Source of the DNA: a virus
Reading direction: 5' to 3' (one strand)
Virus record (IMG/VR): IMGVR_UViG_3300033996_001603
Span: 1 to 20,749 of that record
DNA length: 20,749 bases
Positions 1 through 17,475 of the stretch are shown here, one piece after another. Position numbers and translations under genes: made by a program. Under the pieces are notes generated by a model, which did not search any database, was not told the origin of the DNA, and was given only the letters and a program-made list of their open reading frames with translations. Numbering within the stretch: position 1 is the first letter of the stretch; every line of letters begins with the position of its first letter.

Positions 1-1981
1 TATATAAACTATCACTAGGTACAGAGTTTAATGTATAACCGGTAAAGAAACTTTCATTTACACTATAACCTGATGGATTAACTGAAATTTTTATATCAAA
101 AACACTTTGTAATAAATTGCAACCGGTTTGTCCTACTGTCAAATCTTTAAACCCTTTATTTAACATTTGAACTAACCCAAACTTGGTTTGACTATTTATT
201 GTAAAGTTTTCCCCACCCATAAGATATCTTTGGTAGGAAACATAGAGTTTATCACAATTTATAGTTGTTGACCTTTCTAAAGAACATCCTATATCATCAA
301 CTATTCTTAGAGTATATGTTCCGGCACTTAATCCTTCAACTTGAATTTCTTGAGGATTACCAATAACATTATTAGACCAATAAAACGTAAATGGTGGTGT
401 TCCTGAAGATATTAAAGCATTAATCATCCCATTAGAACCATTTCCACAAGATGTACTATACAAACTAAAATCTAAAGAACTACTTGGATTAACATAAACT
501 TGAGTGGTTTGAACACAACCCGCGGCATCCGTAACGGTTACGGTATGTTGTCCTGAACTAACATTTGAAAATGTAACCGCAGATAATGCGGTATTTGGAA
601 CATTCTGAATTCCATCCAAAGAGTAATTATATGGTGATACTCCACCATTAGTTCTTGTTACCGAGACAATTCCATTGTTTAAATTACAAGTTGTTCCAGT
701 CGTATTTGTTGAGATTGTGTAAGTATCTGTTGCAAATAAAGTAACCTCTTCCATGTAATAACAAGACGAAGAATCTTGAACCGCGACTGAATAAGTCCCT
801 GACGTTAAATTTGGGAATATTTGAACCGTATTATTTCCGCCAATGTTTTTTGTATTACCATTAGGATAAATTAAAGTATATGTGTATGGTGTAACACCTC
901 CAACCACAGATACTTTTATTGACCCGTCAGAACTTGAACAAGTTGACCCACTCGTATCAATAGTGACGGAGACCATTCCTTGAGGAGATATTAATGTGGT
1001 ACCTGCTACAAATGAACACAGTGCCGCATCTGTAACTTGGATAGAATAAAACCCGGGTGATAATCCATTTAAAGTCCAAGATGTCCCATATTGAATTGAT
1101 ACTTCTCCTGTGGACGCAGAATAGTAGAATGGTGCAGTACCTCCTGTAATTTGAATGGTCAATGACCCATCCGCGGCAAAACAACTTGGCGGTACTGCAG
1201 TAAATGTACCTAAACCCACTTGAGGTACATTAACCACATTTACCCCTTTAGTTTGTGAACACCCTAAAGAATCCGTAACAGTTACCGAATAGGCTCCCGA
1301 AGTTAGACCAGTTATCGTAGACCCTGTCGCTCCATTAGACCAAATATAACTATACGGGGGAGACCCAGTGACTCCTGTAACAAAAAGTTTACCTATAGGT
1401 GTTCCTCCACAAGAAGAATTTGGCACATTATATATTCCAAAATTTAATGGGCTAGAATCTTCAATAATAAAATTTTGACTATATCCTGTACAACCTCCAA
1501 TATCAACCACCTTCATATAATATGTTCCGGCACTTAAAGTACCAAAAATAACATCATTGACATTTATATTAGTACTTTGATTCGTGATTTCGTTATCATT
1601 AGAATCATATAAATAAAATTGTGTAGTTGAAAAATTTGAGGATGAGGTTCCTGTAACCGAACCATTATCTAAAGAACAGGTTGTCCCTTGGACTCCAAGA
1701 ATACTAGCACATACTCCTGATGATACAGGTATACTAATATTTAAAGTTTGTTGAACAGGTGCAGTACTATCACTAACGGTGGCTAGGTAATTACCGGAAC
1801 TTAATGAAGTTCTTATTGATGGATACAGAGATGTTATTGTATCTGTCCCCAAACTTGTTGGAGGAGTAGTAAGTAATGTCCATTGGACAATATATGGTTC
1901 ATTACCACCATTAATTGAAAGAGATATTGCACCTGAACCGTTACTTTGACAATCTCCAGTTATTAATAGATTATAATTCAT
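1..1981 (-). CDS. SprB-repeat tail/fibre protein, C-terminus cut off by left window edge
   Basis: An open frame of 660 codons runs from ATG at 1981 to the window edge with no stop, so the 3' end is missing. Residues about 11-566 form seven beta-sandwich-like repeats, the first one weak. Each has a core such as GGTxPYxYxWSNG followed by LxSGTYSVTVTDSxGC, the pattern of the SprB repeat of Bacteroidota adhesins. After residue 566 the sequence changes to a non-repeat module that resembles the C-terminus of the upstream 1000-residue protein. There is no signal peptide: the N-terminus is MNYNLLITGD. That argues for a virion component rather than a secreted host adhesin. The ATG overlaps the upstream TAA by one base (TAATG), so translation is probably coupled. 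A role as tail fibre or receptor-binding protein is inferred from position and repeats. An accessory decoration protein is the alternative. Confidence 0.85.
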   Translation of the reverse strand, partial: MNYNLLITGDCQSNGSGAISLSINGGNEPYIVQWTLLTTPPTSLGTDTITSLYPSIRTSLSSGNYLATVSDSTAPVQQTLNISIPVSSGVCASILGVQGTTCSLDNGSVTGTSSSNFSTTQFYLYDSNDNEITNQSTNINVNDVIFGTLSAGTYYMKVVDIGGCTGYSQNFIIEDSSPLNFGIYNVPNSSCGGTPIGKLFVTGVTGSPPYSYIWSNGATGSTITGLTSGAYSVTVTDSLGCSQTKGVNVVNVPQVGLGTFTAVPPSCFAADGSLTIQITGGTAPFYYSASTGEVSIQYGTSWTLNGLSPGFYSIQVTDAALCSFVAGTTLISPQGMVSVTIDTSGSTCSSSDGSIKVSVVGGVTPYTYTLIYPNGNTKNIGGNNTVQIFPNLTSGTYSVAVQDSSSCYYMEEVTLFATDTYTISTNTTGTTCNLNNGIVSVTRTNGGVSPYNYSLDGIQNVPNTALSAVTFSNVSSGQHTVTVTDAAGCVQTTQVYVNPSSSLDFSLYSTSCGNGSNGMINALISSGTPPFTFYWSNNVIGNPQEIQVEGLSAGTYTLRIVDDIGCSLERSTTINCDKLYVSYQRYLMGGENFTINSQTKFGLVQMLNKGFKDLTVGQTGCNLLQSVFDIKISVNPSGYSVNESFFTGYTLNSVPSDSLY
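284..1951 (-). repeat. Seven tandem SprB-like protein repeats (coding)
   Basis: The repeats are divergent at DNA level but clear in protein. By residue, with window positions, they are: R1 about 11-72 (weak), R2 102-164 (1678-1490), R3 191-241 (1411-1259), R4 267-322 (1183-1016), R5 348-407 (940-761), R6 432-489 (688-515) and R7 512-566 (448-284). R2 to R7 each start at a Cys followed by a D/N-G-S-like turn, and end with a Y-x-V-x-V-x-D strand plus Cys. A 22-27-residue connector separates consecutive repeats from R3 to R7. Confidence 0.8.
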
Positions 1982-4900
1982 TATCGAGCACAATTAATAT
2001 TAATGTTTATTCCTACATAGAGTGAAACTGAACTAATTGTTGTATTATTCAAACAATTTAAATTCGTTATTGTTAATATATTACCACTTACTAAATTGTC
2101 ACTATTAAACGAATAAGAATATCCATAATTTATTAATTGTGGTAAATAATTAAGCAATGCAAATCTCCATTGATTTGGAGTTGGGACATCTAATATACCG
2201 TATCCAGTATAAAAAAGTTCTTTTATTATTTGTTGCCCATCAATAACTAAATCTACATACCATTCAGTTAATACTGAATTTTGGTTACAATCATTTAGGG
2301 TTAAACCTTGTTGTGATAACATATTATTAAGTGTATAACCTAAGATACTACTGAAGTTTGAAACTTTTATATCCTGATTAAACCATGGATAAATGTTAAA
2401 GGTAGCCTCTTCTGAATTACAAGTGTAATCAAAAATACCTGAATTTATATAACATGGATTGACAGGAACTAAAATAAATTCACAACCTCGTTGTCGTCTA
2501 TACGCCAACTTTTGTTTGTGGAAAATAGAATTTTCCAATCTAACTCCCCCATTCCATATTGTAGTTGCAGGAACCATTTGTTCCACCAACTTTGTCCAAT
2601 ATGGTCCAATTCCATTTACATAATCAATTAACTTTTGATAAGTATATTGGTTATTTGGTAATCCAACTGTTTGTTCCGATTCGATATATTTCCAAAAGAT
2701 TGATTGGAGTGTTGGGTATCCTCCGGTTTTTCCATCTGAAATATATTGTCTATTTCTTGTGTTAATCATATTCTCCCAAAATGTTTGAGAAAATTCAAAG
2801 AATGTTTTTTTCTTTGGTTCAGGATTAATGTATGTCCAATCGACTCCTCCAGGTACCGGATATCCCACCGTTAATCCCGATTCAGGTATTGGATAATCAT
2901 ATTGTCTTGATTGGTCCCAAACATCATATACGAGACCTTGCGCGGGATTTAAGAAAATATCAACATTTTTAACATTCAACACTAATTTTTCATTATCCAC
3001 AAAATAATAAGCGTTATAATCTCCTTGAGTCGATATTCTTATTTTATCGTCGCTAGATAACCAAGATTTATTATTATCAACAACTTTTTGTAATTTGAAA
3101 CCTTCACTCATATATGGAAAGTTTCGGTATCGGTTAAGATAAGTCTGACCGTAAGTGAACGGTGTTAGTTGAGTTTGGATATTAAAATTTTGTCCTGTGT
3201 ATACATTTCCGGTTATTTGGACAGCATCAGGACTTCTATGTTGTGGTGTTACTTCATACCAACCTGCACCAATTTGAAAAAAGAATGTTTCCGTATTTTG
3301 AGGTGCTTTTGGATACCCTTCAGTATCAATAGGGTAATCAGTTAAATTTACATTAACATCTTGGTATATCTCACTCGATGTAAATGCGGTATATAAATTT
3401 CCTTGAATCTTGTATGTGTCATTTGGTAAATAACTAGGAACATTATTAACATAAGTTCCACCTGATATAGCAGCCCATTGAGTATCGAATTGTTCAAGAT
3501 TAATTTTTTGGTCAGCCAAATAGATGTGCTCATTGTATTCGATTAATGAATCAGGTGCTCCGATTAATCTTAATAAAAACTCAATTGACCTTCTTGTTCC
3601 TTTTGATTTAAAAAGATAGGAAGCATTGAGAATTAAATTACGATAATAAGCATAATTTAACTCTGTTGGAGTCAGGGCTCTTGCGTATCCAGGATATGTT
3701 GGAGTTGAGGTATTACCAAAAACTGAACTTAAAAAATCTTCATTTGTTATTGGAGAAAAGTTTGATGACCACCCTAATGTTCTTGACAAATTCACCAACA
3801 ATTCTGAAGGGATGTCATTTGAAGGGTTATAGTTAACCGAATTCATATAAGCTAATCCGTCAATGAATTGTTTTACTTGGTCAAAACTTCTACCATAGAT
3901 TTGAAATATTTTTTCAACTTTTTGACCTAAAGTATCAAATTCTTTTAAAGAATCTGTAACTAAAAATCTTGAGATTAAGTTTGTTTTGAAAGAATCTAAA
4001 TTAATCGCAATTGCCTGAATTTCTTCAAGATAGTTGTCGAATAGAAATGAACTAATATCTAAATTCCAAGGTCCTTTTTTCGGCCAAGTAACTTGTTTGT
4101 ATTCAGTATATGTTTGACCATATTCATTTTGTTGTGGGACTTGGAATACTGCAGTATATTCAGGTCTTACTAATCTATTAACCAAGAATTTTTCAACTTC
4201 GTCAAACGATTCTTGGAAAGTTTTATCAACGATATAGTCGTTGGGTCTAACTTGGAACTCATCATTAATTGTTGTTGCGGTGGTTCCGAATGGTGCCCCT
4301 GAAGCGTAAAGTTGAATGTATCCTAATGATAATGTTTCTGATGGAACAAACGCCAATATATTAAAAATATTATCATTAATACTAACACAATAATCCAAGT
4401 AAGTATTATATAGATTTCTATATGGTGACACACTAATCTCTCTGATGTTTAAATTAGTTGTAGCATTTATAGAATAATCAATATCAAAAGGGTTACTAAT
4501 TCTATCTACATTTACTTTAAAATAAGTTTCATCAGCTTCACTATCATACACAATATCATAAGCGGTATTACCTGTAACATAATCATCATTAGTGAACATC
4601 ACATCTAATGATGCCGGAAAGTAATTAATAATTTTTGTTATCGACACACTAAATCTTTTAGATAGTGAACCATACATTGAAAAATTAAGAACTTGGGAAA
4701 TATCGTAATTAGGATAAACTCTAAATTGTGTTGCAAGTATTAGTCTACTTTGTTCCAAACTGTCTACACCCAACATGTCTAACGATATTGGTTCGGAGAA
4801 AGCTCCGACATTGAAGGTTCTGTTCACCTTTTCCGTTACACCCGTAGTAAACTCAAAATTACCTTGCGTAAGTCCTCCCCCTTCAACGGTTTGTAATCCT

Positions 4901-4983
4901 ACAATGTTGTCAGAAAAAGTCCCCGCACCATTACCAGGACGCGGCGGATAAAAGTATTTAGTATTTTTTATCTCTACCGCCAT
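1981..4983 (-). CDS. Large baseplate/tail protein with tail-protein-I-like segment (1000 aa)
   Basis: This is a complete 1000-residue frame. It begins at an ATG that shares one base with the upstream TAA (TAATG) and ends in another TAATG with the downstream SprB-repeat gene. Residues about 440-490 contain YYRNLILNASYLFKSKGTRR followed by SIEFLLRLIGAPDSLIEYNE, a helical pattern like P2 tail protein I and its wedge relatives, where a long helix precedes a K-G-T-R-x-x-E/I-x-x-L-x-x-L/I-G turn. A second compact motif lies at about 798-834 (VEQMVPATTIW, ENSIFHKQKLAYRRQRGC). The last 146 residues resemble the C-terminal part of the next gene's product. The length is close to T4 gp7 (1032 aa), which is also a wedge protein, but I cannot show homology. 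A baseplate structural role is likely and the precise counterpart is uncertain. No signal peptide or membrane segment is visible. Confidence 0.82.
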   Translation of the reverse strand: MAVEIKNTKYFYPPRPGNGAGTFSDNIVGLQTVEGGGLTQGNFEFTTGVTEKVNRTFNVGAFSEPISLDMLGVDSLEQSRLILATQFRVYPNYDISQVLNFSMYGSLSKRFSVSITKIINYFPASLDVMFTNDDYVTGNTAYDIVYDSEADETYFKVNVDRISNPFDIDYSINATTNLNIREISVSPYRNLYNTYLDYCVSINDNIFNILAFVPSETLSLGYIQLYASGAPFGTTATTINDEFQVRPNDYIVDKTFQESFDEVEKFLVNRLVRPEYTAVFQVPQQNEYGQTYTEYKQVTWPKKGPWNLDISSFLFDNYLEEIQAIAINLDSFKTNLISRFLVTDSLKEFDTLGQKVEKIFQIYGRSFDQVKQFIDGLAYMNSVNYNPSNDIPSELLVNLSRTLGWSSNFSPITNEDFLSSVFGNTSTPTYPGYARALTPTELNYAYYRNLILNASYLFKSKGTRRSIEFLLRLIGAPDSLIEYNEHIYLADQKINLEQFDTQWAAISGGTYVNNVPSYLPNDTYKIQGNLYTAFTSSEIYQDVNVNLTDYPIDTEGYPKAPQNTETFFFQIGAGWYEVTPQHRSPDAVQITGNVYTGQNFNIQTQLTPFTYGQTYLNRYRNFPYMSEGFKLQKVVDNNKSWLSSDDKIRISTQGDYNAYYFVDNEKLVLNVKNVDIFLNPAQGLVYDVWDQSRQYDYPIPESGLTVGYPVPGGVDWTYINPEPKKKTFFEFSQTFWENMINTRNRQYISDGKTGGYPTLQSIFWKYIESEQTVGLPNNQYTYQKLIDYVNGIGPYWTKLVEQMVPATTIWNGGVRLENSIFHKQKLAYRRQRGCEFILVPVNPCYINSGIFDYTCNSEEATFNIYPWFNQDIKVSNFSSILGYTLNNMLSQQGLTLNDCNQNSVLTEWYVDLVIDGQQIIKELFYTGYGILDVPTPNQWRFALLNYLPQLINYGYSYSFNSDNLVSGNILTITNLNCLNNTTISSVSLYVGINININCAR
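1984..2421 (-). other. C-terminal module shared with the downstream SprB-repeat protein
   Basis: This is residues 855-1000 of the 1000-residue protein. The stretch FYTGYGILDVPTPNQW (about 924-939) lines up with FFTGYTLNSVPSDSLY near the cut end of the next protein. Upstream of it, a MLxxxx..LTxxxxxC spacing and a hydrophobic beta strand (WYVDLVID versus VFDIKIS) also correspond. I aligned these by eye. The downstream copy occupies roughly positions 2-283 and is incomplete. Confidence 0.55.
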
Positions 4984-7867: not shown

Positions 7868-9545
7868 CTATCAAAGGTTTTATTGGGAAATCAACTCCAG
7901 TTATTACGGAGTTATAGTTTATTCCTTCAGGTATCAATCTAAATTGAACATCCTTAAATGGGTATTGAGCAAAATTTAAAAAAGGATAATCAACACCTCT
8001 ACCTAAATTATCATTAAACCCATAAGTGTACAAATCTCTCCATCTAAATTGTTGGTCTGAATTGGAGAAATAGGCATAGTTTGGTATTCCTTCAATAAAT
8101 TCTAAATCACCTGTTTCAATATAATCCGAAAACACTCTAATAGTCATTGGTGTATGTGGTTGGTAATAGAACCCTGGTGAATTAGTATCACCCGGAATGT
8201 CAGACGATTGAAATACACTCTGGTTATATTTAATTTTTTGATAATACGGAGAAATAACCCTTTCCAATTGTTCATAGTCGTTCCACTCACAAAAATCTCC
8301 ATCTATGGTATCTCCCGAAATTAAATTTTGATTATAATAAAATGTTTTATTACTTAATGAATAACTTGATGTTGGAATCTTAGTATTTGATTCCGGATTA
8401 GTGTTGTCCCACCAAGAATTTGGTGAATTAGTTAAATTAAATTTCCAACCTTGTTTTAACGCAATGTTACCATTTGTCGGGTAATTAAAATATCCCGTAT
8501 AACCTTTATTTATTATGGTTAAAAATAACTCACTAACAGGTCTTTTCTGATTATCCAATACATTTGCAAGGTCTAAGTCACGTTTAATTGTGATGTTATA
8601 TGAATTACTACTTGTTTTTTGAGAAATTCTAGTAATTTTATTTGGTGTAATTGAACTTAATTCAAGTTGTCTTTCCTCATTAAATACATTTTTTTCAAAC
8701 GCATTTTTTGTCATAACACAATCCTCAAGATTTGTTAAAATCTTATGTTCTCTCACATAATATTTTGATTTTGTTTCCAAAATATTTTCAGGATTTATAA
8801 CTCTCTTGAATGTACCTGTTTTTTGATTTGAGAATGTTCCTCCGCGGTAACCAACATTATAAATATTGAAAATATATTCATCACTATCCAATAAACCATT
8901 TCCTAATGAATAAACTTGGAATAATTTTATTTTGTCATAATCAAATGACAACTCAACATATTCTCCAACATTTAATCCGTGTGGTGCAATACATTGGAAT
9001 CCAATAACACTATTTCCATTTTGGGTTGTATTAAAGATTGAGAACGGGATTCCTTCGGAAGCAGTCCATGTTAAACTAGTGTTATTTAATTCATAAAATA
9101 ATTTCTTATTATAATTGTTTTGGTGAGCATAACTAACATAATAAGTCCAATTGTAAGTATAAGCACTTTTTGCTTGATATCTAATATGTTGGTCACTAAC
9201 ATCAGGTCTATAAAAATCAAACTCATAATATTGTGGGTACCCAAACCAAACATTATTAAAAGAAGATTGTTCGGGTTGAACATAATATAAGGTATTTCTA
9301 AATGGAATATATTCAGTAGTTCCTGTATAAGTGTTGGCGTACAAATAATTTAATTTAAATGTAGGTCTAAATATTGAACAGGTCTGTCTTTCATTGTCAA
9401 ATATTTGAGCCAAACTAATACTCTGACTTCTATCATATTCAGTAATCTGTTGACTTTGTTGTTCCAAAGACAATGAAATTTCTTGGTCAACAAATGGTGC
9501 CGACTTAAATTGTAAACTACTTGGAATAATTGTATACTTATTCAT
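7854..9545 (-). CDS. Putative virion structural protein (563 aa)
   Basis: I place the start at ATG 9545 (MNKYTIIPSS), although the frame can be extended one codon to a TTG at 9548. The ATG overlaps the upstream TAA by 8 bases. The protein is 563 residues, beta-rich and full of Tyr and Asn. Recognisable patterns are APHGLNVGEYVELSF (about 188-202), a turn-plus-strand motif often seen in phage structural proteins; RPVSELFLTIINKGYTGYF (about 335-353); and WRDLYTYGFNDNLGRGVDYP followed by FLNFAQYPFKDVQFRLIPEG (about 502-541), which reads like a conserved C-terminal signature. I cannot name the family with certainty. There is no signal peptide or hydrophobic span, so it is presumably a soluble tail or baseplate component. 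Its place just after the 1843-residue protein and before the 280-residue protein fits an outer baseplate or fibre-attachment layer. Confidence 0.78.
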   Translation of the reverse strand: MNKYTIIPSSLQFKSAPFVDQEISLSLEQQSQQITEYDRSQSISLAQIFDNERQTCSIFRPTFKLNYLYANTYTGTTEYIPFRNTLYYVQPEQSSFNNVWFGYPQYYEFDFYRPDVSDQHIRYQAKSAYTYNWTYYVSYAHQNNYNKKLFYELNNTSLTWTASEGIPFSIFNTTQNGNSVIGFQCIAPHGLNVGEYVELSFDYDKIKLFQVYSLGNGLLDSDEYIFNIYNVGYRGGTFSNQKTGTFKRVINPENILETKSKYYVREHKILTNLEDCVMTKNAFEKNVFNEERQLELSSITPNKITRISQKTSSNSYNITIKRDLDLANVLDNQKRPVSELFLTIINKGYTGYFNYPTNGNIALKQGWKFNLTNSPNSWWDNTNPESNTKIPTSSYSLSNKTFYYNQNLISGDTIDGDFCEWNDYEQLERVISPYYQKIKYNQSVFQSSDIPGDTNSPGFYYQPHTPMTIRVFSDYIETGDLEFIEGIPNYAYFSNSDQQFRWRDLYTYGFNDNLGRGVDYPFLNFAQYPFKDVQFRLIPEGINYNSVITGVDFPIKPLIDGCE

Positions 9546-12500: not shown

Positions 12501-15069
12501 CCACATCAAATGTTATTGATAAAAAACAAGTTGAATTACCCGATGGGATAATATATGGAACAATGGTTGGAGCGCCTGTTTGTGTTGTTGCATAAGGCAC
12601 ATTTGCGGTAAACCCGGTATTCTTAATAATACCATTAATACCGTTTAATTTATTAGCCCCAATTGATGTCGTTCCTGTCCATAAAAAATTAACATCTTTA
12701 GTTTTTAATGGGTCAATAAAAGTTAATAAAGTACCAGGTTCAAGAGCTTGTACCGCCAAAACCGTTAATGTGTTATCGTAATGTGTGGTACCGCTTGGTG
12801 ATGTTAAGTTACCCCCATTACTAGGATAATTAAACCTAACACTTATTTTATTAACATTATCAAAATATTTTTTTCTTGTATTATACTTATTAATTCTTTC
12901 TCCCGGAGGTAATGTAATACCCGCAGCAATTAGTTTAGTTCCCTCATTATTATAACTTCCTTGAATTTTCTCAGGAAAAGTAAATGAATCTGAAAAGGTT
13001 GATTTATATATCGTGGGTGTTTTCCTACTAAATCTTCCCGAAATTGCTTGTGAAATTGTAACCGCACTTAATTGTGAACTATCTTCGTTATCGGTATTAG
13101 GGTTAAAAAAACCAACCTCAAGATTATCAATATATAACCCCCCATTAGATAATTGTGTTAATAATCCTGATGGTGGCGCACTCTCTTGGTCTCCTCCTCC
13201 CGGAGCAGTAGTTTCAGGGTCACACTCACAAGATTGACAATCAGGATATGTCATCATAGGTAATTTAAGTCGACCAAATGTATAACTTACAATATCTCTA
13301 AAATTAATTGTTAAGAAAATTGCGCTGACACTATATAAAATTGCAAGTAAGGCGTGTGGGGCAATCATTGCAAGCGTCGCACCAAATGCCGCGGAACCCG
13401 CAATTGCCGCAATAACTAAAATTCCTTGTTGAACCGCAGCTTTAACTAACAACCCAATAAAAAATAATAAGATTGGTGTGGCAAAATTATTCCAAAGAAA
13501 AGCTAAAAAATGAAACACTATTAATAAAGGGATTCCAAGTATTTGTATTATTTGAAGAATTATTGCAAAAATAAAGTAAATTAAATCAAAATTTTTAAAA
13601 CCATCATTAACAGGGAATTTATTAATTGTGTTTGCACAATCCGGACTGTCAATTTCTTTTATACCAATGAAATTTCCTCTTCCACCATTTTTAAATTCAT
13701 CAATTAATCCTGCAATTGTGTAAACTTTGTTAAATTGGAATTCATAAAAAGTATCCTCACAATTAATAATTTCATTTAATCTATTATTTTTTTGATTTCC
13801 GGGAAGAAACCCATTAGTATATCCACTCCACGCCAATCCAAAATAATATGAACTTTGTTGTTTTACTACATCACTCACCGCACCTAAGCCCCATCCATAT
13901 TCTTTAATATTTGGAACTAAATAGTATGGTCTCCTCACCTGTTCAGTTAAACCAGGTGATTGTTGCCATTTTATCTTAAACCTATATTTTGCTTTAGTTG
14001 GTATACCAATTGTTGGGTCATTAGATAAAACTTTTTCACCAAATTCATTGGTAATGAAATAATCCAAGTTCATAGGTAATTCAGTTAACCAAACTCCATT
14101 CCCATCGATAATATTTCCGGATTGTTCTAACTGATGTTGTTCTAACACAGGATTACCTTCATTATCTTGGTAAATTGTTTGTCTAATCGCCAAAATTTGT
14201 CCGGGTCCCGCAACTAATGCACAAAGATTACCCATATCATCCGCAGGTTTTGCGTTTGGTCTAATTCTATATGTGTCAGCAGTAGAATAAATTGACCCCA
14301 TGAATACCGATGTTGGTTGGATGTCGACATTTGCATCATCTCTCAAATCAAAATCAACTCGGTTAATTGCGATAGTACATAATTCAGGGTCTCCCCATAA
14401 TGGAGATACTTCTAAATTTTTAACAAGATTAATAATTTGAGGTAAAGAATTTAAATCATTTGATGTTCTAAATCTTCCTCCGGCAACTTGGGATTCGGTT
14501 GCTAATCCCATTCTAATTAAATCTTGAGGTGTTAAAGAAAATTCTCCAATATCGGATAAGTCAACATCCATAACTATAGTCCGTTCTCCTTGTGGGACTC
14601 CCATTATCATATAGTCACCACTTTCATTAGTTTTTACACTAAATTTGTAATATTTGTCATAAATTTCAACTGCGGTACCACCCGTCAAAACATCTAATCT
14701 TGATGGTAATGTCCCTGTTGCAGCATGAGTTGAATATGATTTTTCATACGGAAGTAAGTTATATCTATAACCATCTTCATTTTTATCACTTGGTGATTTA
14801 TATGGATATATACTTGAAATTATAGGATTTGATTCGTCTACCGAATCTATTGGGATAAAAATTGAAACTCTAGCATTAGGTATTCCGAATCCATTATTTG
14901 CAGTTACTCTACCTACAACTACCCCATATTCGGCACAACTTTTTGTATAGATGTCTTCTTGTTGAAGTTTTAAAGATAAAATCTCTAAAAATTCAAACTC
15001 TTGGTCTAGTTGTACGTTAATCGATTTATTAACCCCTAATTCAGTTCTTATTCTATATGATTGACCCAT
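9538..15069 (-). CDS. Giant tail/baseplate protein with membrane-like segment (1843 aa)
   Basis: I choose ATG 15069 (MGQSYRIRTELG). One further codon upstream, at 15072, is TTG and less likely. Residues about 45-175 resemble a carboxypeptidase-regulatory/SpaA-like beta domain: VVGRVTANNGFGIPNARVSI, a roughly 65-residue insertion, then YKFSVKTNESGDYMIMGVPQG. Residues 492-591 are strongly hydrophobic, enough for three to five membrane helices (FDLIYFIFAIILQIIQILG, LLIVFHFLAFLW, ATPILLFFIGLLV, an Ala/Gly-rich helix, ALLAILYSVSAIFLTI). A Cys cluster (DCQSCECDPE) and a Pro/Gly/Ser linker follow. The remaining 1200 residues are beta-rich with repeated loops, ending in FYFGIIQGETALDKFKTKYS. The gene follows gp6 after a 91-base gap with a promoter-like motif, at the place where a wedge or central hub gene would be expected. 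Its function is unknown. A baseplate component that inserts into a membrane at infection is my inference. Confidence 0.82.
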   Translation of the reverse strand: MGQSYRIRTELGVNKSINVQLDQEFEFLEILSLKLQQEDIYTKSCAEYGVVVGRVTANNGFGIPNARVSIFIPIDSVDESNPIISSIYPYKSPSDKNEDGYRYNLLPYEKSYSTHAATGTLPSRLDVLTGGTAVEIYDKYYKFSVKTNESGDYMIMGVPQGERTIVMDVDLSDIGEFSLTPQDLIRMGLATESQVAGGRFRTSNDLNSLPQIINLVKNLEVSPLWGDPELCTIAINRVDFDLRDDANVDIQPTSVFMGSIYSTADTYRIRPNAKPADDMGNLCALVAGPGQILAIRQTIYQDNEGNPVLEQHQLEQSGNIIDGNGVWLTELPMNLDYFITNEFGEKVLSNDPTIGIPTKAKYRFKIKWQQSPGLTEQVRRPYYLVPNIKEYGWGLGAVSDVVKQQSSYYFGLAWSGYTNGFLPGNQKNNRLNEIINCEDTFYEFQFNKVYTIAGLIDEFKNGGRGNFIGIKEIDSPDCANTINKFPVNDGFKNFDLIYFIFAIILQIIQILGIPLLIVFHFLAFLWNNFATPILLFFIGLLVKAAVQQGILVIAAIAGSAAFGATLAMIAPHALLAILYSVSAIFLTINFRDIVSYTFGRLKLPMMTYPDCQSCECDPETTAPGGGDQESAPPSGLLTQLSNGGLYIDNLEVGFFNPNTDNEDSSQLSAVTISQAISGRFSRKTPTIYKSTFSDSFTFPEKIQGSYNNEGTKLIAAGITLPPGERINKYNTRKKYFDNVNKISVRFNYPSNGGNLTSPSGTTHYDNTLTVLAVQALEPGTLLTFIDPLKTKDVNFLWTGTTSIGANKLNGINGIIKNTGFTANVPYATTQTGAPTIVPYIIPSGNSTCFLSITFDVVATGTTTYFSCANNKVTVTATTIGTKTITNENGIDITTLGGTAEISGITYGPACKRYIYPSDLEYYQVLTAITINTKIQPGTGKTIYSLPGQVLDNAGNPDPTKGFWNDLIADNKGFLLSNNTPGVLENYGYVGGITDGRGGTFSAGNVRHNYFPPNSPSYSFPTSILDGFDEQVVLILQRGVDPYSPKLPNSYGIGRILGHSSENAVVITGMTRMNIPIQPLPSNSTISVQNHKDVSEIFSGSYFYTPGIPNNIIPNASTTPGLAFSSYTTSNVGYYGALDSRYMRTTTPPLRLTITSVLNQVFPANGFHTSTFTARGPKGPTSSEDIQITRTRNYGVYPISVGVPSLMRGVAVTPPSQNLFGVQTTTFTDNVASVSYGGNTPLNPSTRYRLDEDLSGAAYMFRGPLELFISDYRRGGATDLFSGYKATEGQPFSLYFSPLLLPEFTGTTGPNSGLIISSPTQMVMRTDRLPSSDGFDVQKRATDFAFLNGSVGLLQQNLSFAVYSTEVGLSFGAPSFSTGAEQVTADIQGQVLQATVFETMNDCEKMVGLDYYEGNGSKFRVKPGALQNDNVENGCYVMMNRPLLDLTKDLDTFGEWGYRFRFYYGLCRGVLSQSFVNNWVNGSLYMFPMQIDTYFDTNNQPLRPRFAEEIVYFDDKTNNFYYRSSPYSISNSRFVGSPARGFAPVNKDNLLFPTTIVNLGYKDDFYGEVLFDPAAKGYIMKSLSPTTYSDTSDLVNLFVISRITDSGFLTKILSGLNSSLNILFSRKELRIDGDLAQAMSINSEYGVIPFSPQYYSPESGSVVVLDGPTMGVFFSSTTIDLQNKDFLSPGIINFRSPYSSNVNTYEYGIKSQVVPFYQWDLASTNTIFGTEKNNWKTNGGANSEGIFSKKYQSLNRREPDTPNNPSYFMSKGVEGLSDIYKRGYIFAVNSNGDYAFSTATSPSNNYVGAIPDKFLVGAPNHFYFGIIQGETALDKFKTKYSVDE
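13297..13596 (-). other. Multi-helix hydrophobic (membrane-like) segment within the 1843-residue protein
   Basis: Codons 492-591 encode about 100 residues that are nearly free of charge. Exceptions include one Lys in GLLVKAAVQQG and one His in each of two helices. Charged or polar flanks (NDGFKNFD before, NFRDIVSYTFGR after) bracket it. An Ala/Gly-rich helix (VIAAIAGSAAFGATLAM) resembles pore- or fusion-type helices. Hydropathy was judged by eye. Confidence 0.8.
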
Positions 15070-15160: not shown

Positions 15161-16999
15161 TTATGAAAAAGTAACTGATTGGAAATTTTTAACCGAAATT
15201 CTAATATCCTTATTCGGATATCTAACTTGATAAACTTGTGAAGGTTGTGCAAAAATTGTATCATCAACAGGTTCAATTAATCTTGTCGCTTCGTCCCTAT
15301 AAGTCATTGAAGTTTCGGCTGAAGAGTATTGCCCTCCAACCTCATTAAATACATCCATACTTGCAACCGTCAATACCCCATTAGTATTTTGAACTAAACT
15401 TCTAAGTTCAGATAAATAAACATTCTGCCCTAATTGTCTTGTTTGTGCATTAAAATATGCAGATATTTTATCAACAACACTTGAAATTACTTGTCCTGAA
15501 TTTTGAGCCGAATCTAACACTATTGAGACATCCAAACTTAAATCAATAACTTCAGCGCTAAAGATTGAAATATAATCATTCATCATTCTATAGTTTGATA
15601 AATAATTTGCAATATTTTGTCTCAAAGTATTTGAAACAATGTTTGTTAACTTACCTGAAGTGTCATATGATAATATTTGAATTAAAATTTTATTATCATT
15701 TTCTGTAATTGATACTTTAGCCGGTGCTCCGAATTGAGCCGGCATATTTCGAATTAATGATTCATAATCTTGAACGGTTACCGCTCTTTTTTGTGCTGAG
15801 AAGTTAAATGAAACATAATTTCTAATTTCTTCCAATGATGGAATACCTGCCCCTCCAACCGCTGCGGTTACATTGACACATCTCAATGAGTTAACAACAG
15901 ATGAATTGGTTGTTTCTGATGGACCATTAACAAAGAACGATACAGTTCCAATTTGATTGATAACATTTGTTCCCAAGTTAGTTGCCAATCCCCCTCCAAC
16001 TCTATACTGAATAAATAATGTCGAATTTGGAGTTAAAGTTGACCCCAATGAAAAGTTATTTGAATATTTTTGTAATTCTAATGTAGTCCCTAAAGTTGTA
16101 AATTGATTTAATTGGTCTTGAGCAGTATTAGTTCCTCCTCCAAATGTCATTTTTTTAAATCCTTCCGGTGTATATTCAGTAATAAATCTATTTTGGGTTT
16201 GAATATATCTACCAACTTTAATACCCGGTTGGTCAGATACTTTTGTCGGGTCTTCAACAAATACCCTATCTTCAGCCAATGCGTCAACCTCATACCATCT
16301 ATTATCCAAACCTAAAAATTCTGCAACTGTAGGAGTATTGGTATAGCTTGTTCCATTCTTCAATAACACACTTGTAATTCCTAAAACATTTTTTTCAGGT
16401 AAAAATAATTCAAAGAAAGGTTTAACATCATTCGCACCAATAACCTTCTTGAAAACTTTAGTAATACCATTCACAACAATTTCTCTCTTTGTTATTGTGT
16501 AATTTATTAAAATATTATTAGCATTGAAGTTTGGAATCTTTAAACGATTTGGGAATCCTTGAGCATTATATGGTGACGCAAAATCAATATCATAAACATT
16601 TTCAAATACAACACCCGCACCAACAACTTGAGACCCTCGAGCCAATGTTCCAAGATATCTCTCATCCTCTTTATCCCCAAAAGCAGGAACTGTGATTGAG
16701 AAGTCTACCAATGAAACAGATGGTCTTTGTCCCGGTAATTTTAACCCGTAGGTTCTTGCTATATTATAAATTGACGACCTTTGTTGAGCATATTGTAGAA
16801 CCGTCTCTTGAATACTTCGGTCAATATTATAATGTAGATTATCTGCAACCGCAGCATTTAAATCAAGAAATACCGAAAATACCGAAGCGTCGTTAAAGTC
16901 TTGGATTAATTCAGGGTAATATGTTCTAGTATAATTTAAAAGTTCAGTTCTAATCGACTGATAATCTCTACTAGCGTATGATATTCTGTTGTTTGCCAT
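15161..16999 (-). CDS. gp6: Baseplate wedge protein, T4 gp6-like (baseplate J family)
   Basis: This is a complete 612-residue frame, close to the 660 of T4 gp6. The N-terminus (RISYASRDYQSIRTELLNYT, then PELIQDFNDASVFSVFLDLN and DRSIQETVLQYAQQRSSIYN) is the typical start of gp6/baseplate-J-like proteins, with the conserved Arg-Asp-Tyr and the long helices. The C-terminal third contains AQKRAVTVQDYESLIRNMPA followed by QFGAPAKV, then LRQNIANYLSNYRMMNDYIS and a VIDLSLDVSIVL strand, again diagnostic. In T4, gp6 dimers form the ring that ties six wedges together and, with gp25 and gp53, links the baseplate to sheath contraction. It starts 5 bases after the gp25 stop, so the two are translated from one message. 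Stop is TAA, followed by a 91-base gap. Family assignment is strong. Confidence 0.93.
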   Translation of the reverse strand: MANNRISYASRDYQSIRTELLNYTRTYYPELIQDFNDASVFSVFLDLNAAVADNLHYNIDRSIQETVLQYAQQRSSIYNIARTYGLKLPGQRPSVSLVDFSITVPAFGDKEDERYLGTLARGSQVVGAGVVFENVYDIDFASPYNAQGFPNRLKIPNFNANNILINYTITKREIVVNGITKVFKKVIGANDVKPFFELFLPEKNVLGITSVLLKNGTSYTNTPTVAEFLGLDNRWYEVDALAEDRVFVEDPTKVSDQPGIKVGRYIQTQNRFITEYTPEGFKKMTFGGGTNTAQDQLNQFTTLGTTLELQKYSNNFSLGSTLTPNSTLFIQYRVGGGLATNLGTNVINQIGTVSFFVNGPSETTNSSVVNSLRCVNVTAAVGGAGIPSLEEIRNYVSFNFSAQKRAVTVQDYESLIRNMPAQFGAPAKVSITENDNKILIQILSYDTSGKLTNIVSNTLRQNIANYLSNYRMMNDYISIFSAEVIDLSLDVSIVLDSAQNSGQVISSVVDKISAYFNAQTRQLGQNVYLSELRSLVQNTNGVLTVASMDVFNEVGGQYSSAETSMTYRDEATRLIEPVDDTIFAQPSQVYQVRYPNKDIRISVKNFQSVTFS

Positions 17000-17004
17000 C
17001 TTAT

Positions 17005-17475
17005 TTAAATATTAATAATCACAAAATCACTTTGACCAAAAGTAGAACCATTGGTTGAGTAATCTATCCTTATTTTTGCAGTATATTCTGAAGTTCCTTT
17101 TCCCGGAAATCGATATACTGACGATTCACTTGTTCCCACAAAATTTTGACCTGTTGCAATATCAACTTCTTCTTGTGGGTCGGCCGGTGTTATACTTAAA
17201 CTATTAACCAATAAATTTGGCATAAAGTTTTCAATCGCATCTCTTATATCAGATTCAATAGCATTAAATGTTAATCCATCAAATGGTTCAAAAAGAAATT
17301 CATATAATCTTGTTCCAAATTCAGGTAGAAAATATCTCGAACCCTTTCTAGTTAACAATAGATGAATTAAATCAGCTTTAATTTCTTCTGATTGTAATTC
17401 TGTTAATTGTAAGTAGTCTCCTCTTAGAGAATCTCTAAACGGAAAATTAATACCATATGTAACACCATTAGCCAT
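17005..17475 (-). CDS. gp25: Baseplate wedge protein, T4 gp25-like (GPW/gp25 family)
   Basis: This is a complete 156-residue frame, slightly longer than T4 gp25 (132 aa). The core FPFRDSLRGDYLQLTELQSE, then IKADLIHLLLTRKGSRYFLP, EFGTRLYEFLFEPFDGLTF and DIRDAIENFMPNL matches the GPW/gp25 lysozyme-like family, including the P-E/P-x-G-x-x-L-x-x-x-L-F-E-P pattern. The extra length is a C-terminal insertion around residues 100-130 (VDIATGQNFVGTSESSVY). In contractile tails this small protein sits at the start of the sheath and transmits the trigger from baseplate to sheath. It is not expected to be an active lysozyme. It opens the tail operon, after the terminator and two promoter-like elements, and is followed 5 bases later by gp6, the same pairing seen in many contractile systems. 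Confidence 0.93.
   Translation of the reverse strand: MANGVTYGINFPFRDSLRGDYLQLTELQSEEIKADLIHLLLTRKGSRYFLPEFGTRLYEFLFEPFDGLTFNAIESDIRDAIENFMPNLLVNSLSITPADPQEEVDIATGQNFVGTSESSVYRFPGKGTSEYTAKIRIDYSTNGSTFGQSDFVIINI

Follow-up and report, generated by a model that had tools for sequence, protein, structure and literature searches.

A giant protein of 1843 residues, encoded directly after the gp25- and gp6-like baseplate genes of a 20.7-kb virus record (the whole of which, 20,749 nucleotides with its genes on the minus strand, is referred to as the window), was found to carry in its middle a hydrophobic, probably helical module that is kept throughout a large family of uncultivated phages. It is tentatively proposed, at somewhat short of an even chance, that the giant is a baseplate component of a T4-related phage clade and that its helical module inserts into a host membrane at infection. 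If the unlikely case of contact during assembly is added, membrane contact of either the virion or the assembling baseplate appears probable. The case for a membrane module is comparative, not structural, and the location of the giant in the virion is something that we infer from gene order.

An earlier note, made from the DNA sequence, had described a multi-helix membrane-like domain of about 100 nearly uncharged residues at positions 13297-13596, which are exactly codons 492-591 of the 1843-residue minus-strand ORF (M1 being the ATG at 15069, with the stop at 9538). The composition was borne out, as only 4 of the 99 residues in 494-592 are charged and the mean Kyte-Doolittle hydropathy is +1.72, compared with 17.4% charged residues and a mean of -0.29 in the remainder of the giant. 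Residues 496-542 (47 residues) are uncharged and are followed by Lys 543 and then by another uncharged run up to Arg591. Residues 492-591 are the sole strongly hydrophobic stretch in the giant, and a hydropathy scan of the other ORFs of the window found none near this hydrophobicity. The best 19-residue octanol sum of the module is -15.7 kcal/mol. When the composition of the giant was shuffled 5000 times, the 19-residue maximum was reached in 40 shuffles and the 36-residue maximum in 2, and the hydrophobicity observed in 60- and 98-residue windows was never matched (1.79 observed over 98 residues vs. a shuffle maximum of 1.18). The 19-residue window is unimpressive by itself, and the longer windows carry the weight.

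Table 1. Coordinates of the baseplate-cluster genes in the window and of the parts of the giant protein.
Feature	Position	Strand	Basis
gp25-like baseplate wedge subunit	17005..17475	-	sequence match
gp6-like baseplate wedge subunit (Baseplate_J)	15161..16999	-	sequence match
Giant baseplate-cluster protein, 1843 aa	9538..15069	-	ATG start at 15069; 96 non-redundant relatives
Candidate N-terminal beta-sandwich, carboxypeptidase-regulatory-like, ~residues 45-170	14560..14937	-	weak PF13620 in relatives; model strands
Invariant Cys478, upstream bracket of module	13636..13638	-	alignments
Hydrophobic module, residues 494-592	13294..13590	-	hydropathy, model; kept in 96/96 relatives
Proximal conserved hydrophobic helix, residues 494-528	13486..13590	-	96-row alignment; polar/small stripe, G-x-P kink at 512-514
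Distal hydrophobic part, residues 529-592	13294..13485	-	variable; three length classes in relatives
Invariant Y-P-x-C-x2-C-x-C, residues 608-616 (Cys 611, 614, 616), downstream bracket	13222..13248	-	alignments
1000-aa protein, weak candidate for a gpI/gp7-like third wedge component	1981..4983	-	sub-threshold PF09684 matches in relatives

Relatives were collected by scanning IMG/VR four times with the window protein or diverged relatives as query; each scan returned 465 to 536 relatives, of which the best 80 were kept, giving 207 loci, 198 copies with a start and 96 copies after reduction at 95% identity. The hydrophobic stretch is kept in all 96 non-redundant relatives, and homologues lacking hydrophobicity at this place, which had been named beforehand as grounds for abandoning the membrane reading, were thus not found. 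The first 36 residues of the stretch are the most hydrophobic 36 of the whole protein in 93 of these 96 relatives. Simple hydropathy scoring assigned 1 to 4 crossings per copy and none outside the module in 91 of 94 copies, and the conserved hydrophobic segments are long enough to cross a bilayer, as would be required of a membrane-inserting tail component. A parity rule, under which the number of crossings would always be even, is not claimed, as counts of 1, 2, 3 and 4 were all predicted. A frame-shifted or fused membrane gene was ruled out as an artefact, since all 96 copies keep a single reading frame across it. By sequence comparison, the stretch is a family feature and not the oddity of one sequence.

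The family itself, as judged by these searches, is undescribed and unnamed, and the window protein is covered by no curated profile. Sequence and profile searches of the window giant against PHROGs, Pfam and PDB yielded no match above chance (ribosome-recycling-factor and TRPV4 matches with E of 0.38-1.8 were rejected), and no relative of the giant was detected among isolate phages (INPHARED, tblastn, two divergent copies as query). Thirteen pattern matches in GTDB genomes included no true relative, so that GTDB gave neither evidence of integrated copies nor a host. A weak PF13620 match in the N-terminal part was obtained for 5 of 26 relatives (E 0.0012 at best) but not for the window copy itself. 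Foldseek identified a single relative among predicted viral structures, the uncharacterized protein A0A8S5LA66 of Myoviridae sp. ctPuP5; it is homologous to the giant by structure and sequence (44% identity over 362 columns, E 1.8e-20), and its record of 994 residues is possibly a part.

The window reads, in order, NrdB-like/NrdA, gp25-like, gp6-like, the giant, proteins of 564, 280, 369, 302 and 1000 residues, and a SprB-repeat protein; NrdA was recognized by an RNR profile match, and the NrdB-like protein was assigned from likeness to relatives and position. Every locus of sufficient length shows gp25-gp6-giant-564-280-369-302-1000 without interruption, and a T4-type Gp23 capsid protein is present on 5 of 10 large contigs. 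One contig with a relative and a Gp23-type capsid gene is 309 kb long (L195/L228), larger than those of 165-182 kb, and represents either a jumbo member of the group or a joined assembly. The SprB-repeat protein (PF13573, E 1.4e-21; window 2-1993, minus strand) lies at the operon end, is truncated by the window edge and points to a Bacteroidota host. PF09684 gave sub-threshold matches (E 0.05 and 0.11) to the 996- and 1003-residue ORFs of relatives, which were the sole matches in those genomes, and the 1000-residue protein of the window is related to a 1336-residue protein of Microcystis phage Mel-JY01 (E 3.5e-9). The latter phage and Flavobacterium phage immuto are the closest isolates by gp6 (26-27% identity); both encode gp25 and gp6 together with a large relative of the 1000-residue protein of the window, but neither contains a match to the giant or a strongly hydrophobic ORF after gp6.

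The module consists of two unequal parts bracketed by cysteines. In the 96-row alignment, the first ~35 residues are conserved, with N493, F494 and F499 invariant and a G-x-P near 512-514. Position 509 (Q509) is polar in every relative, as is position 520 (H520; 80 His and 9 Arg), Q506 is polar in 95% of relatives, position 502 is S/A, and position 527 is N in most. These five polar or small positions (502, 506, 509, 520 and 527) share one heptad-like face with 4-3-like spacing, and the remaining faces of the helix bear the large hydrophobics Ile/Leu/Phe/Val. Hydropathy along the proximal helix has a period close to 100 degrees (permutation p 0.01), and no significant periodicity was observed for its conservation measured as entropy (p 0.47). 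A soluble coiled coil has the reverse pattern, which suggests that the proximal helix lies in lipid or is fully enclosed by protein. The distal part is variable, and the whole module falls into three length classes, short (~49-69 residues), mid (71-84) and long (102-116). The long class is Ala/Gly-rich and is the kind found in the window, and the mid class is often Cys-rich with an R-P-F-G motif; mid-class copies (L163, L166, L172, L188, L201 and others) often show a distal CxxC...RPFG(F/W)xC...C, that is, four extra cysteines beside the hydrophobic helix. The short class has only ~50 residues, which leaves room for one or two crossings, so that relatives may not all share one topology. Eight cysteines (45, 231, 283, 437, 478, 611, 614 and 616) are invariant in a 59-sequence alignment, and seven of them stay so in the 96-row alignment, cysteine 437 being nearly invariant there. 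C478 lies 16 residues ahead of the stretch, which is followed at the same distance by the Y-P-x-C-x2-C-x-C motif, so that the excursion begins and ends near a candidate node, possibly a metal or disulfide site.

Structure models agree with the description of the giant as an otherwise soluble, beta-rich protein, the model of residues 1-700 doing so at low overall confidence. AlphaFold, run on residues 1-700 with 96 alignment rows, gave a mean pLDDT of 54.6 and a pTM of 0.33, and the low confidence around the helices means that the site on which they pack is unreadable from this model. Residues 645-1843 were modeled better (mean pLDDT 68.5, pTM 0.62), with many strands and 278 residues at 90 or above. 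The number of helices, originally put at three to five potential ones, is less sure: the hydropathy scan splits the stretch into four segments, and AlphaFold draws two helices (496-558 and 565-588, block pLDDT 69-92) and a short one at 590-594. A confident structure placing the segment in the core of a soluble fold, the other outcome named beforehand as contradicting a membrane domain, was not obtained, AlphaFold giving long helices with no soluble fold around them. Foldseek comparison of both models with PDB returned no match with E below 0.001; transthyretin- and dioxygenase-like matches to the N-terminal part (E 0.03 and up) were set aside, the fit to the beta-sandwich being loose. The membrane-like reading of the stretch stands in part: the stretch is real, present in 96 of 96 relatives and matched to no known soluble fold, and against it the conserved His/Arg and Gln inside the helix would cost energy in a bilayer unless paired.

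The evolution of the module differs from that of the rest of the protein. Pooled dN/dS was calculated from 45 close pairs, some of which are not fully independent because several contigs are near-copies. It was 0.03 for residues 1-250, 0.07 from there to 488, 0.11 in the proximal and 0.33 in the distal part of the module, and 0.17-0.20 in the C-terminal parts. Constraint is tightest in the N-terminal part and loosest in the distal hydrophobic part, which still stays hydrophobic; no pooled ratio exceeded 1 in any part, and hence there was no sign of positive selection by this measure. A tree of the sequence preceding the module requires 13 changes among the three length classes vs. a shuffled mean of 35, and at least 8 changes, for the long class, are forced by well-supported branches; the classes are clustered on the tree yet switch repeatedly. 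Several pairs of copies change abruptly in similarity along the gene. L122 and L172 show 100% identity over roughly the first 350 residues; the value then changes to 82, 59 and 66% in successive 50-residue blocks before the module and is at most 52% over most of the sequence beyond. In both L127/L149 and L014/L159, the first 250 residues are nearly the same in the two copies, identity thereafter is ~62-86%, and it drops sharply at residue 500. A near-identical N-terminus with a far less alike remainder in these three pairs is a sign of recombination within the gene, but mixed-assembly fragments may also lie behind the pattern. A fourth pair (L054/L142) is 98-100% identical up to residue 500, 62-78% at 501-650 and 76-100% after.

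Comparison with known systems corrects one point of the earlier note, which held that known membrane-active tail components are usually tape-measure or tip proteins and not wedge-adjacent giants; the contrast is too strong, as T4 gp7, also beside gp6, has a predicted membrane domain. Like the giant, gp7 (1032 residues) is a large protein encoded directly after gp6, and its annotation predicts an integral membrane domain near the C-terminus, at about residues 878-913. The same hydropathy scan found one segment in gp7, at residue 886 (19-residue Kyte-Doolittle 2.07, octanol -10.7), which is single, shorter and near the C-terminus, whereas that of the giant covers ~99 residues in mid-protein. As gp7 structures have been solved in the assembled baseplate, a predicted membrane segment alone is no proof of insertion and may lie hidden within a soluble machine. 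No sequence relation between the giant and gp7 was detectable by profile comparison (probability below 20%); by the features of gp7/gpI wedge proteins, the giant is adjacent to a gp6 homologue but shows no sequence homology to gp7 or Tail_P2_I, the weak PF09684 matches having fallen on relatives of the 1000-residue protein instead. Tape measures offer another comparison: that of JBD30 has putative transmembrane parts proposed to insert into the host membrane for DNA passage, and channel-forming tail proteins released on infection, mostly tape measures, have been proposed elsewhere (PMC11445458). They share with the giant hydrophobic helices in a tail protein. The giant is not the long, mostly helical rod expected of a tape measure filling the tube and setting tail length; its models are rich in beta structure and have most of their long helices in the module, and gene order would place it in the baseplate. 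A further comparison is the contractile injection system of Anabaena, a tail machine that sits in the thylakoid membrane via baseplate and fiber extensions; Cis12 and Cis13 resemble the giant in that a baseplate component extends to the membrane and, with a fiber-like protein, makes the contact, the transmembrane helix there being in Cis13 and Cis12 having only a putative amphipathic helix (PMC8894136).

Other membrane-signal candidates were sought in the genomes of relatives. Among the ORFs of 250 residues or more in a 182-kb relative, a strong membrane signal was confined to the giant (38 windows above 1.8, compared with 3 in the runner-up), and in a 170-kb relative the giant again ranks first (19 windows) before a low-complexity Leu/Val/Gln ORF (12) that is perhaps spurious. 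A 612-residue ORF near the sheath gene of the 182-kb relative, a tape measure candidate by eye, has no strong hydrophobic segment and was not recognized by PHROGs. Several moderately hydrophobic helices were also observed in a 700-residue protein encoded just upstream of a gp5-like hub/lysozyme candidate (L262:2903-5002 (+), and the 692-residue ORF at G003:C1:95693-97768), possibly another membrane-active tail protein. Elsewhere on the 182-kb contig (L258/L259, ~33863-41506), a ~2500-codon frame spans the join of two fetched pieces, the larger part of it without a PHROG match.

Membrane insertion, its moment and the oligomerization of the module, all of which we infer, could be arranged as follows. 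The very conserved N-terminal ~490 residues would dock the giant in the baseplate, the C-terminal ~1200 residues would form a beta-rich body, and the hydrophobic helical excursion would project from the node of invariant cysteines between both parts. In the virion, the helices of the module would be packed on each other or on neighboring subunits; after attachment or sheath contraction they would swing out and insert into a host membrane, where several copies may join through the polar stripe, either to keep the baseplate fixed there or to line a passage that admits the tail tube or DNA. The distal part would adapt to the membrane or membrane partner of each host. A polar stripe on a hydrophobic helix and a freely changing, ever-hydrophobic distal part fit a membrane segment. 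A bolder version is doubtful, namely that exchangeable membrane-penetrating helices of the baseplate insert in several copies around the tail tube as an inside-polar ring, the distal cassette being swapped between phages to match the inner-membrane lipids of the host or a receptor in that membrane, with host range partly set there rather than by fibers or the tape measure.

Insertion at infection has to be weighed against a module that never meets lipid, being a helical bundle inside the baseplate like the gp6/gp7 wedge core bundle. In XM1, helix-turn-helix arms of two gp6-like subunits and one gp7-like subunit form the core bundle that holds myophage wedges (PMC10457771), and such an arrangement would suit the well conserved proximal part, its long modeled helices and the precedent of gp7, with its predicted membrane domain in a solved baseplate. 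A buried core should, however, co-evolve with its partners, and here the distal part is the fastest and the module varies from ~50 to 116 residues across relatives in which gp6 stays ~77-94% identical; moreover, the outward faces are wholly hydrophobic with a single polar face, and the 1000-residue protein is, weakly and by profile similarity, a better candidate than the giant for the gpI/gp7 role. A buried bundle is thus considered rather unlikely, if the foremost rival.

Two further explanations accept the membrane but change the occasion or the protein. In the producing cell, the module might fix the giant to the inner membrane, as a platform for baseplate assembly late in infection and not as an entry device. 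Hydrophobic helices in mid-protein would probably be bound by the signal recognition particle and inserted during translation, and positive residues flank the module on both sides (K492; R591, R600 and K602). T4 heads also begin assembly on the inner membrane (PMC3185693), and the thylakoid tail machines (PMC8894136) are a comparable case; but finished virions must leave the membrane, no sign was found of the release or masking step needed, and generic lipid binding does not obviously explain the rapid turnover of the distal part, which makes an assembly anchor unlikely. Least probable of all, the giant might be a late membrane protein (e.g., for lysis timing or superinfection exclusion) that lies in the baseplate operon by chance; a virion location based on synteny leaves room for this, and variability of the membrane part would be in keeping with an exclusion protein that has to deal with competitors, yet the strong constraint on residues 1-250 and the fixed place of the gene between gp6 and downstream structural candidates in long loci speak against it.

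How the DNA of contractile-tailed phages crosses the inner membrane is, to our knowledge, still largely unexplained, with tape measures and tip proteins making up most of the candidates so far. A phage group as widespread as this one, with a conserved and exchangeable membrane-like module in a baseplate-cluster protein, would make the question of DNA passage testable. The comparative data suggest that the tail base of these abundant uncultivated T4-like phages may contact a host membrane.
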